This document shows positions 26,494 through 46,100 of a stretch of 64,000 nt of DNA, one piece after another; positions within the stretch are counted from its first letter, which is position 1, and the number at the start of each line of letters is the position of its first letter. A program made the position numbers and the translations under genes. Source of the DNA: Arbacia lixula (lineage: Eukaryota; Echinodermata; Echinoidea; Arbacioida; Arbaciidae); NCBI GenBank assembly GCA_963669155.1, contig OZ022576.1, positions 9,922,710-9,986,709 on the forward strand, read 5' to 3'. Under the pieces are notes generated by a model, which made no database searches, was not told the DNA's origin, and saw nothing but the letters and a program-made list of their open reading frames with translations.

Positions 26494-26501
26494 GTCTGAC
26501 C
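26494..26501. repeat. Left target-site duplication of the P element
   Basis: GTCTGACC lies directly before the left terminal inverted repeat and recurs exactly at 32656-32663, directly after the right one. Eight bases is the P-element duplication size. The reverse complement, GGTCAGAC, differs at one base from the GGCCAGAC consensus reported for the Drosophila P element. Confidence 0.9.
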
Positions 26502-26531
26502 CACTGAACTATACCACTACGTGGAACGGAC
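26502..26531 (+). repeat. Left terminal inverted repeat of the P element
   Basis: Thirty bases identical to the reverse complement of 32626-32655. It begins with CA, and the match stops at the next base. Confidence 0.93.
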
Positions 26532-26611
26532 ACCGGACGAACGCACACGCAGAAGCTCCAGAGGAGATTAATTTTACGTGAGGCAGCGCGATCGCAATGC
26601 ATTGTGGGATT

Positions 26612-26626
26612 TATTCACCCAAGAAA
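26612..26626 (+). repeat. Left subterminal inverted repeat
   Basis: TATTCACCCAAGAAA, 110 bp inside the left end, pairs with 32562-32576, which ends 79 bp inside the right end. It is a candidate transposase-accessory site by analogy with the 11-bp internal repeats of Drosophila P. Confidence 0.75.
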
Positions 26627-26757
26627 CCCAACTAGAAAGCGCTTTCGCTGTGATTGATCCACGTTCATTTTATCGCCGAGTTTTTACTGAAATTTCGTTC
26701 GTTATTTTATACTTTGGAAGAATATTTCTCTTTTACGTGATAATATGGTAGAGCAGG

Positions 26758-29700
26758 ATGCCGTCTTGTTCTGCAATCAACTGCACAAATCGAGATGTTC
26801 GTGAAAATCGCGAGAAGGGATTGACATTTCACAGGTAAGGAAAAGAGCCACTTTGTAGTCCCAACCGTAGATTTTTGTGTTAGCTGTGTGTAGAGAACGC
26901 TGATAAAAGTTAAGAGAGTTAATCAGATGCTAATATAAGTCAAAGAGGGATGTGTTGAATCAAGTCTGACATGAAATCACCCAATTTTATTATATACAAT
27001 ATGTGAATAAACTTCAAGAGCTGACTTCTGTTATTTCTGTCGTTGGAATGGCGTTGACTGGAACAAAATACCCAACTCGATCAAATCAAATTCTCAACAG
27101 ACCAAAGACAAGTCAAAGAAAAAATCCAAAAGTACACCAAGCAACGCCTCTCACCTCCATCTAACGACCAACAATTTTGTTAATTAACAATGCAAATTAA
27201 ATGTACAGTAATCACGATAATGTTAGACTTATTTTTAAATTCTCCTGAGTGAATGTGGTGAGCTGAGCTGTTGCTTCCATTCTTTTTGAAAAAATTGAGA
27301 GTGGCGCATATGTATGTTGCATGAGACTAACCTGGTCTACCTTTCTCTTGATCACATTAATTGTGTTTGTCACCATTTCTTCAATTAATTGTAATCACTG
27401 TTTTTTTTTCTTCATTTTTTAGGTTTCCTCACTGCAACCCAGATCTGTTGAGAAAATGGGTGGTGAACATGCGGCGGGACAGATGGATGCCAACTGCCAG
27501 GTCGTTTCTATGTTCCAAGCACTTCACACCAGAGAGCTTCCATAGATTTGGACTACGTGTTAAGCTCCATGAGTCTGCTGTGCCAACAATCTTTGACATA
27601 CCTCGCCATCTACAAAAGGTATGTTCTAACTTGTAGATAATCAATATGAGTGTACATATAAGTAAATACTATTATTAAACACTTCCCAAGTTGTAAAAAA
27701 TATGATTTTGAACAGATAAAGGAAAATCAGACAAACGAACCACTGAGATTTCATCAAAATCAGACAAGGACTAGCAAAATCATCACATTTTAAAGCTTTG
27801 CCTTACTTTAGTGAAACAAGCATGTCATGAATTATTTGCAATGAGCAAACTGATATATCCCCGCTTATTCTTTTGTATCCTATTATTTGAAATGATATTC
27901 ATTCAATGTTGTCCACCATTAATTATTGAATGATAGTAGATCATTTTTTGAGAATATTGACTTTAAATACCTGCTAATGGACACCAGTTGGCAGAAATTA
28001 CTTGTATGATTTTTTTTTCACACAAAAAGACAACAAGCATGATTCTTTCTTTGTGATTAAGGACCACAATTTGAATTTATGGAATTAGCTTATTCTTAGT
28101 GATCAGATTTTTTTTCACTCAACAGACTTTTAAATTGCTGTTTGCGTGGGATATTCCTTTTACATTTTGTATTTTATCTCTTTTCTTGATCATTCAGAAA
28201 GTCAACCAACGGAAATGTCCTGCTGTCCGTGTTTCTGCACCGCCTTTGAAGGAACCAGATCTTCATTCTCGTCCACTGCCACAGCAAAGTACATGTGCTG
28301 ATCCTCTGGCTGAGCACAATTATGCTACAATGGACTCGCCAAGGAAATTGAAGCGCAAGTTAAACATGTCCGAAGAAAGACTGGAAAAATGTAGAAAGAA
28401 ACTGAAAGTAGTACATCAACGAACACGACGTTTGAAACGAAAGGTCGAGACCCTGAAAGGTATCATCGATGAGCTACGTAATGAGAAGCTGATTTCTACA
28501 AATTGTGCAGACTTACTCGATGGGACCATTGACGGCATACCTAAAGAAGTGATGACAAGAATCATTGGATGCAAAAAGGGAAAAAAATCATCTGCTTATC
28601 CTGAGGAGCTGAAGTCGTTTGCACTCACATTACAATTCTACTCAGCAAAGGCTTATGAATATGTCAGAAAGTCTTTTGACTTGTGTCTACCCCATCCGCG
28701 CCAACTCCGGAGATGGTATAATAGGATTGATGGCGATCCAGGCTTCACAAAACAAGCGTTCACCTCACTAGCAGGAAAAGTGACCAGAAACAGAGAGGCT
28801 GGTAAAGAGACTGTCATCGCCTTGATGATGGACGAGATGGCGATTCACAAGCATGTGGAATTTGCTGAAGGCAGATATCATGGCTATGTAGATGTTGGGA
28901 ATGGAGTAACAGATGATTCCACGCCATTAGCTAAAGATGCACTTGTGCTCATGGCAGTTTCAGTGAACGAATCCTGGAAGATACCATTAGGATATTTCCT
29001 GATAGAGGGTATGAGCGGAGCAGAAAGGGCTAATCTAGTTCGAGAATGTCTGCTGAGATTAGATGATGTTGGGGTACGTGCTGTATCATTAACATGCGAT
29101 GGACCTTCCTGCCATCTAGCTATGATGAAAGAACTAGGTGCGAACATGAACATCAATGGCTTGGACCCTTCATTCCCACACCCTGCTGACCCTTCTGTAC
29201 ATGTGCATGTAATACTTGATGTCTGTCACATGCTAAAGCTGCTTCGAAATTCGTTTGCAGATGGTGGGATATTCAAAACTGAGGATGGAAAGACAGTGAG
29301 ATGGAAATACATTGATGAACTACATAAGCTTCAGGGAACTGAAGGGCTACGACTTGGTAACAAACTGAAAAATGCCCACATGCAATGGAGAACTCAAAAA
29401 ATGAAAGTGAACTTGGCAGCGCAGGTGTTCAGTGCTAGTGTTGCGGATGCACTGCAGTATTGTGAAGAGAAGCTACAGCTTTCACAATTCCAGGGCTGTG
29501 GTGCAACTGTAGAGTTTCTTCGACATGTGGACTCGGCCTTCGATGCATTGAACAGTAGAAATCCGTTTGGAAGGGGGTTGAAAGCACCGTTGAAAAGCGA
29601 AAACTGTGCATCAGTTCAGCAACGTTTGCAGAGTGCTGAAGTGTTCCTTCTCGGTCTCAAAGACGGATCTGGCAAAAAAATGTGCGAGGGACCAAGGAAA

Positions 29701-30597
29701 ACTGGCTTTGTTGGTTTTGTTGCCAGCATCAGAAGCATTTTGAACTTGTATGATCTACTTGTAGCACCACCCGATGCCCCACTCAAATATATGTTGACGT
29801 ACAAATTTTCTCAGGATCACATTGAACTCTTCTTTTCCGCCCTCAGAGCGCGAGGAGGATTCAGCAATAACCCTACAGCACGACAGTTTAAGGCAGCATA
29901 CAAACGCCTGTTGATGAGGCATCACATAAAGAATGGTACGGGTAACTGTATTCTCCGTGATGACACAACCATTCTTCCCACCGACAGCGCCAATGATGTC
30001 ACAACTATGAACATTGCGAGAAAGTATGATCTCATCCCCAGACAACCCAGCAGGACAGATCATGACTACAGTGACTTGCCAAATATTGAATCGTTATCAG
30101 ACTATAAAGATGCGGCAGTCAACTACATCAGTGGATACATTGTCAAATCTCTTGGGCCGCGTATGGAATGTATGGAATGTGTCAATGCCTTGTCAGCTTG
30201 TGATGGTAAAGCTCATGACTTTGTCACAATGAAAGATCGTGGGAGGCTGCAGAGGCCATCACCTAGCGTCGTGTCCGTATGTAGAGAAACAGAGAAATGT
30301 TTCCAGCGACTTCTAAGAACAACTCAAGGAAAGCTTCCTCAAGGCCATGGAGTGACAACTGCTATCTCTTCCGCAGTTTTGGAGAACACAAGCCGTATGA
30401 ACTTATTTGGTCAGTTGCACCATCACCAGTTTGACACCACAATTGACAACAATCACATTCACAGCATGATCAAGAAAATTGCATCGCGTTATGCTCAGAT
30501 CAAGCTCTACCACTTAGGAAAGGAAACAACAGATGCCGCAACAGGGCCCAAAGTGAGGAAGAAACTAGCCAAAACAATCTTGTTCCGTCATCAATAG
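26758..30597 (+). CDS. P-element/THAP9-like transposase with THAP zinc finger
   Basis: DNA transposase. Exons are 26758-26834, 27423-27618 and 28198-30597 (stop TAG), with GT/AG borders, joining in frame to 890 aa. This is close to the size of vertebrate THAP9. Residues 1-83 form a THAP DNA-binding domain: C5, C10, C56 and H59 give the C2CH zinc ligands, with W38 and the closing AVPTIF at 78-83. Residues about 140-188 are a highly basic, Leu-spaced coiled-coil stretch, likely for oligomerisation. The RNase-H-like catalytic part shows D303 (MMDEM), D392 (CDGPS) and E634 (SQDHIELFF), which fit the acidic triad of P transposases. LDVCHMLKLLRN (432 region) and GGFSNNPTARQFKAAYKRL are family signatures. 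The region between the second Asp and the Glu should hold the GTP-binding insertion typical of the family. VNYISGYIVK (732-741) and a Cys-rich segment follow. No stop or frameshift is seen. The start is the Met that begins the THAP fold (MPSSC). Confidence 0.95.
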
Positions 30598-30784
30598 ACA
30601 TGGAATTCATTGTGGAAAATGAAAATAACTTGAATTTGTCTATGAAGGCATGTATGATCTTAATGAAGTGATGAAAAGAAACTCGCAAAAACAATTTGTT
30701 CCATCATCAATAGACATGGAATTTGTTTCAGAAAATAAAAATAACTTGAATTTGTCTATGGAAGCATGTATGATCTCAATGAAA
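30566..30784 (+). repeat. 116-bp tandem duplication across the transposase stop codon
   Basis: The last codons, the stop and about 70 nt of the 3' untranslated region (30566-30668) recur at about 30681-30784 with a few substitutions. The landmark CATCAATAGACATGGAATT appears at 30590 and again at 30706. The second copy lies past the stop and is not translated. Confidence 0.85.
30734..30739 (+). terminator. Candidate transposase polyadenylation signal
   Basis: AATAAA, 137 nt after the stop. It lies in the second copy of the 116-bp duplication, where the first copy has AATGAAAATAA instead. Confidence 0.45.
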
Positions 30785-31877
30785 ATGATGAAATGATAGC
30801 TTACACATAATTGGTATTTAAATTAGAAGCTTTGAAATTTGGTTGTGTGTTTTGTAGTTTGCATTTTTTTTGTATAAGTAAAGAAAGTTCTTGCCTCACA
30901 TCAGCTCATTTCTGGAATATTTCTTTAACATTGCATGATGACATTTATACTAGTGCACTCTCTATGATGTGTCCATATATGATGCATTTACATGCAGTGG
31001 TGTGCTACACTTTATTTTATATTAAAATACTGTTTATTATGAACTGATATCTGCATCTTATATGAAGTATACACATGTTCAGACAATCTTCCCTTAATTA
31101 CCTCAATTCTACCTTGCAATTAGGCAGCGTTTTACTTTTGTTTTTTGAGCAATTACAATATTATATCTTTTTGAAAAATCTTACATCAGCTAATTACTGG
31201 TCTTTCCGCTACATTGTGTAATATTAGTCAAGATTGGAAAAGATTTTTTTTTCAATTTATGTTTATCAAGTTTTATATTTTTGTACATGTATGGACTGCA
31301 ATCTAAGGGCTATTTTGTGCTTAACTCTGTTTGATATGCTTTTGTGTGCAAGACCACAGCTTACTTCAACTCAACTTTGAAAATTGAAATTTTGTTTGAG
31401 ACAACTGCAGAATTATGTCTTTTGAAATATTTTAGCCTAGTAATGTCAACTCTACCAGAAGTCTATTATTTATATATTTGTGCTACATTACTTACGTATA
31501 ACATTAATCAATCTCAGTTTATGGTGTATCAAGTTAAGTCATGAAGTCATAACCAATTCACAATTGTATATCTGTTTCAGAAAACAATATATTTTTTCTA
31601 CTGCCACATTCACTGCCCTAACCTTCCCCTCCGTTGTTCTAGTGTCTTTGTACTTGAAGTGTTTCGTCCTATACTTAATTTATTACTGATCGATTTTTGT
31701 TTTTTCATTCAAATGTTTTTATCGTTGGGTTTCATTATGTTTTGGTGAATTATTTTTTTTATCAAGTAATATTTTGATGTTACTTTTTATGTTGTTTTTT
31801 GTTGTATTTATTTGTAATTATATTATTTATAGTTAATACTATGTGTGCCAAATGCATTATTTCTGTGTATTGCATGA

Positions 31878-32330
31878 TAAAGAGAGAGAGAGAGGGGGAT
31901 AAGAAGAGGAAGAGAAAATGAGGGGGGAGTAGTAATAAGAGGGAGAGAGAAAGAGAGTAATAAATAGACTAAGAGGGAGAGAGAGATTAATACAAGTGGA
32001 AGATGAAAAGAGGATGGGAGAATGAGTAATGAAAGGAGTAAGAGGAAATTATGGTAAGAGAAAGAGAGTAAGAGGAAATGAGGGAGAGAGTGATAAAAAG
32101 AGGAAGAGAAATAAGGTAGGGGGGATAAAACGAGAATAATAATAATAAATAATAAAGAGATTAAGATAGAAAGATTAATAAAAACAGGAAGATGAAATTA
32201 GGATGAGAGAAAGAGCAATAAAAGGAGTAAGAGGAAATGAGACAGAGTGATAAGAGTCAGAGAAAATGAAGGAGAGAGAAAAATGGACACATGGACAGAA
32301 ACGAGAGATGACTGCATTGATTGAGGGGAA
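31878..32330 (+). repeat. Purine-rich (GA/GGAA) tract in the P element
   Basis: About 450 bp of the plus strand is almost only A and G, in degenerate GAGAGA, AAGAGGAA and GGGAGA units with occasional T (AATAATAA). It is a polypurine tract able to form triplex structures and is non-coding. Confidence 0.85.
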
Positions 32331-32625
32331 AAAAGGTAACAGCCAAATGTTCATGAAGTTATTAAAAACATCAAACTAGAGGCAGTGTTAGAGTCCTAAC
32401 ATTAAATTTCTATAGAATAACCTGTTGCTGTGTGTAACATTGATGATTATGGATTTAAATTTTCAGTATTCTTGCAATGAAAATCATGACACCACTGAAC
32501 TTTACCACGGGTGCATGAACACCTCCATATGTTCACATAGAAATGCATTGAAGGCTTTCGTTTTCTTGGGTGAATAGGATAGGGGGCGCTATACATTGGC
32601 GGGGCTTCGGTGAATCACACGCGCC

Positions 32626-32655
32626 GTCCGTTCCACGTAGTGGTATAGTTCAGTG
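32626..32655 (-). repeat. Right terminal inverted repeat of the P element
   Basis: Exact 30-base reverse complement of 26502-26531, followed directly by the right target duplication GTCTGACC (32656-32663). Confidence 0.93.
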
Positions 32656-33415
32656 GTCTGACCGCGCGAGTGACAGAAGGGGTTGGGGTTGGCCGGGGGT
32701 GGGGGGGGGGGGGGGGGGGGCACATTCGTGCACTCTTTGTCGGATCAAACCCTGAGAACATTCCATCCCTTAGTGTCTTCTTCCTAAGCGGCTACGTTCT
32801 TGTCCATTTTGATTTGTGAAAGACCAATTCATGATTGACGTTACATTTTTCTTGAGTACATCACGCATGACATGTTTTATTAGGAGAGTGCGGCTTCAAT
32901 TCCATATCAAAGATTGAAGATAAGTCTAAAAATAATATTAGACAAACAACTGAACACAAGTGTCCGGACTTACCATGGAAGGCATTTCCGAGAAAAAATA
33001 TTTAGATTCATGAATGCATTGCCATTGAAGGCCAAGGATCACCAGATTCACTTCCGGTAGCTGAGGCTCTGACGGAGATGCATGTGGGCACTTGGATTCA
33101 GATTATAATTCAGATTCCATATTATCCCATGTGCGCCAAAGTTCTTTCTTGGTTGACGTACTCAAACAATTAATGTAATGATATTGTTCTATCCATTTTC
33201 ATACCAGCAAACTGTTTTATCTTCAGATGATTTGATGCATGTTTAAAACATAGGCCTAACCTCCACGCTATAACAGGTCAGTGGCCCGAAGGAACCATCC
33301 ATTTATGCGTTTGCAGTCGATTCACAAATAGAAAGCGGCCTCCGAGGTTCCCCGTTATCATAGCGCCGAGACGAAACACAAGGAACAAACTGAGCCGCGT
33401 GTATGAATGTGTTGT

Positions 33416-43161: not shown

Positions 43162-46100
43162 ATGTCGGTGGAAAAAAGAAAGTTTGACGATGTTCTGGTG
43201 GAGTTGGGCGAGTTTGGACGCTATCAGATTGGGATTTATAATCTGATTTGTTTCTTCGAGTTTATCGCCCCCTGGCAATATCTCGTTAGCGTGTTTCTAC
43301 AAGGGGAGCGAGATCACTGGTGCAAGGTAGGGATGGCGCAAGACTCATAGAGATAGAGAACTCCTAGTCTGTCGGGAATATTCCTGTGTAATCCTGCTAT
43401 CCTTTGCTCTGACCGGTTAATACGATATTTCAGATAACCCTGTTCGACAGATTACTTTGCGATTTATTAATTAACTTGTGACTGCTACATCTTCATTTGG
43501 GTAAAATAAACATCGCTCCTAAATTTGTCATTGAACCTTGCTCTGTGACTGTTACACATTGGCCTCTGCCAGTATATACCTGCAATCAGCAATATTCTAC
43601 ATTTTACAGGAGGAGCTAATATCTTTAACCCCTAATTTTGGAGTGTTTATGTCAAACTAGCCATTGTATTTGAACATTTGAACAAACTCAAAGCCTTCTA
43701 TTTTGGTTAGTCTATTATATGTTTAATATGTTCTGTGTTTAATGTTGTTTGTGGATGTGTATGTGCTTGATCGTGTATGATATTGTTCTTGCATGGATAG
43801 ATTTGAATGCAATTTTCCTTTTAATGCTGTAAGTGATAAAGAGTTTCAGCAAATTGTAGATGGTGTGCAAAGTAAATGTAATAGTGATGATACCCATTTT
43901 AATAATGTAATATGTAATAATTATGTAAATGAGGATGATGATGATGATTATGATGAATTAGAATCTGACGATAGTTTCTTGGTAACAAATAACCCTACAA
44001 AATACTGGCTTCCTAAGGACTTTAAGAAAGATGTTGACGTTGTAAGTAAAAATATGAATTTTAGTATGCTCTACTTTAATTCTCCAAGTTTGTATCGAAA
44101 TGTTGATGACATTAATCAGTTGGATTTTCAATTCATTTATGGATTTAGTGAAACTTGGATATATGATAAGACTCCTCTATTGTTTGATTTGGATGATTAT
44201 ACAGTTTATCATAAAGATAGACTGCACAGGAGGAGTGGAGGTGTAGCACATTTAGTTCATAATCAATTTGATATTAAAGTCCGGAATGATATATTATTAC
44301 CCGATTCTCTCTGTGAATCCCTTTTTATTGAAATAGAATTAAATCATAAGAAAAATATCATTGTTGTTATAATCTATCGAGACCTAGTAAATCAATTCAT
44401 GAATTTAATTATAATATGAATATATGTTTTGAAGGTCTGGTGAGAGAAAATAAGAATATGTTTATAATGGGAGATTTTGATATAAATTTGTTGAATTCAT
44501 CGGTGAGCAAGTTTATTAATGATTTTATCAGTATTGTTTATAATAGTTCATTCCGTCCTTTGATTGATAAACCAACAAGATTAACTAAAAGATCTGTCAC
44601 TCTGATAGATAATATTTTAACTAATGTATATAATAAAAGTATCCAGTCGGGTTTATTCTATAGTGGCTTGACAAATCATTTACCTATCCTTGAACAAATC
44701 GATCTTATTCCGTTCCTGTAAGCCCCACATATTCCTATATAAAACAAAATGACCCCTGGTGTTAAATTCATTTAAAAAAGATTTACTAGCAACAGAATGG
44801 AATGATGTTTTAACCAATCTAGATATAAATGAAGCGTATATAATATATTCACATATACACATGAATATGAATAATCTATTGACAGATTCACAATATGGTT
44901 TTAGAAGTAACTTCTCTTGAGACCATGCTTTAATTGACCTAAATAATCATGTTCTAACAGCATTAAATGATAAATTATACACACTTGGTATATTTCTTGA
45001 TCTTTCAAAAGCTTTTTATGTCATAAACCATGATAGCTTACTTGCAAAACTTAATCATATTGGTATTATTATTAATCATATCTAATATTACCATTATAAA
45101 TTATTCATATGATCGTTATCAATTTACATCTCATAATACCTTTGTTTCTAATAAGGAAAGAATTCAACACGGAGTCCCACAAGGCTCAGTACTCGGTCCT
45201 CTATTGTTTCTTGTATATATAAATAAACTTTGCTCTGTTTCCTCATTTTTTCACTTCATTCCATTTGCTGATGATTCAAATATTATTGCATCACACACAA
45301 ATTTTGATAAACTTATATCGGAAACAAATAAAGATTTTAAAAAGATAGTCGATTGGTTTAATGCAAATGAGTTAATAGTGAATTATGAGAAATTTCTTTT
45401 ATTATATTTCCATGGCTAAAATAGTAAATATCCTAAAAATGATGTTAACATAATTATGAATGAAATCACTTTAACTGTAAGCTCGTCATTTCAATTTCTT
45501 GGTGAAATTTTAGATGGCACTTTATCCTTTGAAAATCATAGATTGTTTATTAAGAATAAGATTTCAAAGAGCATTGGTATCCTTTGTAAATCACGCTTAT
45601 TGTTACCAGAAAGGGAATTGTTTATGTTGTATAATTGCTTATTTTTACCATTGTAATATTACTAGGGCCAGTTTTGGAAAAACTGAATTAGATACTTTAT
45701 TTAAACTTCAAAAGAAAGCCCCAAGAATCTGTACTAACTCAAATTATCGAGCTCACTCACTTCCTTTGTTTTTCCGTTTGAATACTCTCAATATTTATGA
45801 TATTCATGAGATAAGAACTGCCACATTAATGTTTTTTGTTTTTAATAATTTATCACTAAACCTATCTCTAAAATGTTCCTTTGTAATAATATAGTGCATT
45901 CTTATAACACTCACTCAAGTAAAAAAAATATCATTTTCATAAGGTCAATAACCAAACTTTGTTATACTCTGTCAGACATACATGACATAATGGTCCTCGT
46001 ACATGGAATAAATTATCAAATGAATTAAGAAGTTGTAAACTGCAGTCCGCATTTAAAGCCAAACTAAAGAGATCACTAAACTCTTCATATTCAAATTAAC

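Follow-up and report, generated by a model that had tools for sequence, protein, structure and literature searches.

A presumably autonomous P-type transposon and candidate P excision scars in the Arbacia lixula genome

The P chemistry described in the literature consulted, that is, the 17-nt stagger, GTP and the GTCCGGAC targets, is fly-derived in those parts of the sources that were available (PMC10983969, PMC7776569, PMC3276498, PMC10299278, PMC13228809, PMC13317027, PMC1562414). In these parts, a review reports that the fly P transposase cuts 17 nt inside the terminal inverted repeat (TIR), the terminal length requirement of the fly element is given as 138 and 216 bp, and GTCCGGAC is given as the target consensus from larger samples; a table of fly targets has GTCCGGAC under P and GTNCGNAC under hobo. 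Zebrafish Pdre and Anopheles P elements have been published as well, which runs against the premise of a preliminary description of the present locus that most P-type transposases outside Drosophila are immobile. The locus lies in a window of 64,000 nucleotides, meaning the whole stretch of DNA that was analysed, which is part of contig C1 of one haploid assembly (607 Mb, 590 contigs).

The element in the window and its transposase

The window contains a P-superfamily transposon of 6,154 bp at positions 26502-32655, here called family A. Perfect 30-bp TIRs, an 8-bp target site duplication (TSD) and an unbroken 890-aa transposase had been reported for it, and all three were confirmed at 26494-32663. 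Its description as a complete P-type element also stood, on the evidence of its protein domains, an aligned D/D/E triad and the perfect TIRs and TSD. The features are as follows.

26494 to 26501, no strand: left TSD, GTCTGACC
26502 to 32655, plus strand: complete family-A P-type transposon, 6,154 bp
26502 to 26531, plus strand: left TIR, 30 bp
26612 to 26631, plus strand: left subterminal inverted repeat, 20 nt, 90% complementary to its right partner
26758 to 26834, plus strand: transposase exon 1, start of the THAP domain, with a GT donor
27423 to 27618, plus strand: transposase exon 2, remainder of the THAP domain
28198 to 30597, plus strand: transposase exon 3 including the stop, with HTH, RNase H and GTP-binding insertion and a weak THAP9-like C-terminus
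32491 to 32508, plus strand: TIR-like word in the subterminal region, 18 nt with 94% complementarity to the right TIR end
32557 to 32576, plus strand: right subterminal inverted repeat
32626 to 32655, minus strand: right TIR, 30 bp
32656 to 32663, no strand: right TSD, GTCTGACC

The two TIRs (26502-26531 and 32626-32655) are 100% complementary over 30 bp, and the repeat search gives 31 nt, as it also counts the matching C/G pair that flanks them. Further inside, the window copy has a subterminal inverted repeat pair (26612-26631 and 32557-32576, 20 nt at 90%). A short-word search found a 13-nt word of this repeat at one end in all ten other copies and the matching 8-nt word at the opposite end in four of the ten, so the pairing may be weakly conserved. 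The TIR-like word at 32491-32508 is a possible foldback candidate. Two other repeats were seen within the element: a 98-bp duplication, 86% alike, at window 30570-30667 and 30686-30783, which spans and follows the transposase stop, and a purine-rich degenerate repeat tract at window 31874-32290 that has weak matches at many genome sites. Elsewhere in the window, at 43793-44419, a 208-aa open frame gives the impression, on reading alone, of a candidate retroelement endonuclease fragment.

Joining the three exons (26758-26834, 27423-27618, 28198-30597) at GT/AG sites gives a frame of 890 aa with zero internal stops. Pfam finds in this protein the THAP domain, the P-element HTH, the N and C parts of RNase H and the GTP-binding insertion, together with a weak THAP9 C-terminal domain (25.2 bits, cut-off 24). 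The fly P transposase structure 6p5a aligns to the protein with an E value of 2.9e-23. In the alignment, D303, D392 and E634 (residue numbers counted by hand) stand opposite D230, D303 and E531 of 6p5a, which we take to be the catalytic residues of the fly enzyme. The predicted protein, a P-type transposase with THAP, RNase H and GTP-binding insertion, places the element in the P superfamily, as do the aligned D, D and E. The element also has the TIRs and the 8-bp target duplication of this superfamily, and internally deleted non-autonomous copies share its ends. The window locus is presumably an autonomous P element, family A being one of several such families in this genome.

Deleted copies and other P families in the genome

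When the 30-bp end was searched across the genome with at most 3 mismatches, 17 matches were obtained, 16 of them perfect, against 0 for the reversed control, which argues that they are element ends and not chance matches. The preliminary description had pointed to a search for further full and deleted copies; eleven family-A copies were found besides the window copy, all deleted or relic. Comparison of the coding region at 28198-30700 with the 607-Mb genome found no second complete family-A coding copy. A family-A fragment on contig C224, 90% identical, contains frameshifts and a stop.

The copies examined comprised nine loci from the first search and four later stretches, among which one covers a locus of the nine again at greater length. 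Six other copies have the 30-mer at both ends (one end of locus L011 with a mismatch) and TSDs identical at 8/8 positions, so that with the window copy included 8/8 TSDs accompany paired 30-mers in 7/7 cases. Loci L016 and L037, where the TIR of one end is shortened to roughly 18 bp and 20 bp, respectively, also have 8/8 TSDs; perfect 8-bp TSDs were found in nine family-A copies, the window copy counted. Among the remaining loci, L014 has a single end, L035 and L036 are relics and L038 is a short internal match alone. The relic L036, on C22, measures about 130 bp; in it the right end of the element meets a TIR piece of about 18 bp, one outer end being lost.

Divergence among the copies is 2-7% with gaps ignored, and the median window identity of the copy bodies is 94.45% (90 windows of 30 bp, including the first window, in which the L014 and L016 ends are badly cut and which was excluded from the TIR conservation). 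If each lineage is taken to have diverged by 2.8%, the 17 ends should together hold about 14 mismatches, whereas 16 of them are perfect (P about 1e-5). A deletion junction at element positions 1094/4490 is common to 7/9 loci, and this shared deletion stops close to where the THAP domain ends. In the alignment, the THAP frame is broken in 7/8 deleted copies. Broken THAP frames beside intact ends suggest that the deleted copies relied on transposase acting in trans, and copies without an intact reading frame would have been mobilised in this way. A KP-like repressor was considered as a conserved product of the deleted copies and was rejected, the THAP frame being open up to the junction in 1/8 aligned copies (L015).

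That the window copy is the sole complete family-A coding copy found in the assembly would also be expected of a fixed, domesticated host gene of the THAP9 type. A gene of this kind is very unlikely here: the copy has perfect TIRs and a TSD, deleted relatives have the same ends, and the scars described below contain its own TIR.

Family A is accompanied by other P sequences. The P RNase-H domain matched 39 stretches of the genome, several of which are pieces of one locus, and was not found in 14 control genomes (make-up unspecified). Among eleven P transposase loci compared with one another and with the window, a set of four, each from a different contig, shows 100% identity over about 1 kb, a second set of four 99.6-99.9% and a pair 99.3%; these stretches, with groups 99-100% identical over 1 kb, tell further against the premise of immobility. 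The four 100%-identical loci (C10:25002630, C14:376701, C5:4567205 and C56:24935; L143-L146, with L154 and L155) contain open frames of 784 aa. Two of the four are 99.92% alike over 5.0 kb, a stretch that does not extend to an end, so that they may be either one large element or duplicated segments.

A second family, B, was recognised on C8. A pair of B ends there, separated by 8.95 kb, has an 8-bp duplication in common and a P transposase with a stop between them; the family B transposase is 48% identical to that of A. The ends of eight B elements were examined and the TSDs of six were scored as pairs from the same element, the two on C4 being left out because their flanks are exchanged. These two elements (C4:5623520-5629003, L091-L093) lie 104 bp apart with their flanking 8-mers exchanged and reverse-complemented, as if recombination had inverted the intervening 104 bp.

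Joined end remnants, cut position and target choice

In the fly, P excision products keep TIR remnants. Here, at locus L035 and at a site beside L011, two end remnants were found joined between duplicated 8-mers. A genome-wide search with the pattern CACTGAACT-N{0,30}-AGTTCAGTG returned 309 sites, compared with 1 for the reversed pattern. Flanks were compared in the first 50 distinct sites listed, which run from C1 to C3 and are not a random sample. The 8-bp flanks are identical in 33/50 and match at 7 or more positions in 39/50, the other 11/50 falling below 7/8, and shuffled pairing reaches 7 of 8 in about 1.9%. A second search for joins of 39-69 bp gave 38 sites, 23 at 39-48 bp and 15 longer. 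Because 23 sites fall at 39-48 bp and the limit of the first pattern is 48 bp, 286 of the 309 scars are at most 38 bp long. Three of the 38 longer sites were already among the first 50, which leaves 35 matches; flanks agree at 7/8 positions or better in 26/35, and 9/35 fail this criterion, three of the nine being one unrelated repeat. The pairs L039/L065 and L131/L132 each have common flanks and are thus not independent events. In the open-access literature, among the titles and abstract openings of the matches listed, no report of genome-wide P excision scars was found.

The remnants in the 50 scars fall into classes: 19/50 are type A and equal the window element's own end, 17/50 are type B and belong to the second family with a related TIR, and the other 14 are ambiguous or of type C (CACTGAACTAAAAATAACC), the owner element of which was not found. 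The joined remnants have the appearance of scars left by excision, with two or more P families involved. Together, the nine perfect 8-bp TSDs and the hundreds of likely scars make past movement of family A by cut-and-paste well supported, a statement limited to the past. The assignment to P can be compared with an origin from a hAT-type element with chance-similar ends. Such elements likewise make 8-bp duplications, and the target of hobo, which is a hAT element, is similar (GTNCGNAC). The A and B remnants, in contrast, match the TIRs of elements that encode P transposases, by which the hAT origin is largely refuted for A and B; we give it next to no weight.

Whether the scars speak for recent activity of family A itself is a separate matter. 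It may be that scars and copies are real and that family A is now dead, with current movement due to other P families. The window copy is the only complete coding copy, the A fragments on C224 are frameshifted, and other P transposase groups, 99-100% identical over 1 kb, look younger. Set against this are the intact frame, the perfect ends and TSD and the 8/8 flanks found in 12/19 A-type scars. A dead family A is a serious possibility, although at somewhat below even odds.

The remnants also bear on the position of the cut. Intact A and B ends extend beyond position 21, whereas among the 170 remnant ends of the 85 matches examined none matches the TIR past 21 nt (A) or 20 nt (B). The match reaches at least 18 nt in 71/170 ends and at least 19 nt in 55/170, unrelated and ambiguous matches counted. 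As no remnant end goes further, the scars imply a stagger of about 19-21 nt; for A, the cut may lie anywhere between 19 and 21 nt because the ACGT there is self-complementary. The estimate for B rests on few full joins: B-like 19+19 joins occur at three sites, one of them altered at the join, and a search for 20+20 B joins gave a single match, which is a 19+2+19 scar. Exact C-type 19+19 joins were found at two sites with common flanks.

A 38-bp A-type product recurs at 89 genome sites with at most 3 mismatches, 41 of them perfect, copies of duplicated segments possibly included; these sites far exceed both the A copies and the full B joins. Eight of them are among the first 50 scars, and the flanks match at 7 or more positions in 7/8 and are inverted in one. 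In the latter, L054, the flanking 8-mers are inverted (GGCAATCA / TGATTGCC) rather than direct. One 38-bp sequence at 89 sites, 41 of them perfect, resembles an amplified unit, and the near-palindromes could be seen as tiny MITE-like elements, each inserted with its own duplication. This is improbable, because lengths and interiors vary (18 different lengths in 50 sites, with fillers that often copy TIR sequence), because the A and B remnants have the same architecture with a ceiling of 20-21 matching TIR bases, and because 38 bp is short of the terminal needs of fly P, 138 and 216 bp in the sources as far as available. In the A-type scar L129, bases 1 to 15 of the family B end lie in the filler, so that a B end may have acted as repair template.

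The preferred target can be read from the 39 scars with flanks matching at 7 or more positions. Symmetrised, these flanks give the 8-mer G (69%) T (49%) Y (75%) N N R (75%) A (49%) C (69%), that is, GTYNNRAC, with a weaker G two bases outside it. Applied to 15 element TSDs (nine A and six of the eight B), the scar matrix gives a mean of 1.73 compared with -3.45 for random local 8-mers. With random 8-mers as reference, it puts the window TSD in the top 0.17% and fly GTCCGGAC in the top 0.02%; the TSDs of L009, L010 and L012 lie at the level of random 8-mers, and those of L037 and L089 are unremarkable. The target preference is close to fly GTCCGGAC, similar though not identical. The preliminary description had placed the window TSD one base from the Drosophila consensus, which holds against the reverse complement of GGCCAGAC but becomes three mismatches against GTCCGGAC. 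Its suggestion of a conserved target preference agrees with the 39 scar duplications, but the GT...AC part is not P-specific because the hobo target is GTNCGNAC.

Targets were used repeatedly, as scars nested in or adjacent to one another indicate. An extra end word was found in the fetched stretch of 8/84 scar loci, within the matched span in L113, L118, L129, L139 and L140 and outside it in L070, L083 and L127; the former five come from the longer class, so sampling favours nesting. Scars lie nested or side by side at L113, L127, L139, L140 and L011. At L113, two scars are flanked by three copies of one 8-mer, and at L011 a second insertion lies one base offset from an older scar. Local hopping was considered and set aside, scar clustering along C1-C3 being weakly non-random (5 neighbour pairs closer than 100 kb compared with 2.0 expected, p 0.045).

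The reading that we favour, at a probability of roughly 0.85, is that of an intact cut-and-paste P transposon whose scars are end-joined excisions, with a stagger of about 19-21 nt and GTYNNRAC targets. By homology, the THAP transposase would bind the ends and cut the 3' strand at the duplication junction. The scars suggest that the other strand would be cut about 19-21 nt inside each TIR, which would leave long 3' TIR tails on the broken chromosome. The element would reinsert with an 8-bp duplication and the preference for GTYNNRAC seen in scars and insertions alike, and end joining between the tails would often close the donor break. Repair of this kind would give the structure seen at the scars, a short near-palindrome of two TIR remnants between duplicated 8-mers. 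The tail ends of family A would be self-complementary (CG or ACGT), and the 38-bp A product may be so frequent because such tails would anneal. The TIR-copying fillers would fit end joining with templated synthesis. We lean, with rather less confidence, towards the further proposal that the stagger of this transposase exceeds that of the fly enzyme and that its germline breaks are mostly end-joined at self-complementary tails, which would leave the genome with far more scars than elements.

Comparison with known P systems

If this reading is true, the genome is a natural archive in which P excision, the choice of targets and their reuse can be read. It would hold several hundred excision products formed in nature in an animal other than the fly, and these would allow cut position, repair route and target preference to be read off and compared. 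The scar record points to P systems suited to laboratory tests, and it turns the copy-number puzzle of many scars and few copies into a testable one.

Known P systems were compared through structures and through those parts of the literature that were available. The Drosophila melanogaster P element (PDB 6p5a/6pe2) is like the window element in its THAP domain, HTH, RNase H with GTP-binding insertion and aligned D/D/E and, in the published account as far as available, in a TIR of about 30 bp, an 8-bp TSD and a target near GTCCGGAC; the subterminal inverted repeat of the window copy, seen at both ends in four of ten other copies, may be a further likeness. It differs in TIR sequence and in size (2.9 kb in the fly, 6.15 kb here), and the window protein differs by its weak match to the THAP9 C-terminal domain. 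The stagger probably differs as well: the fly element is described with 17 nt, and the 19-21 nt that the remnants imply here would depart from this Drosophila value. Human THAP9 has the same P-type transposase architecture but is described, in the text available, without flanking TIRs and without internally deleted copies. The several P families of Anopheles gambiae, with P-MITEs as non-autonomous derivatives and an 8-bp TSD, are similar in the partial descriptions from which, rather than from sequences, this likeness was drawn; the word footprints had 0 occurrences in the portion of the Anopheles P text searched. The zebrafish Pdre2 / zfTHAP9 system, as described in the parts consulted, is similar in having a full-length THAP9-type gene between TIRs, an 8-bp TSD and internally deleted copies. 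Its TIR, however, is 13 bp long and of another sequence, whereas the sea urchin element combines a 30-bp TIR with a large scar record.
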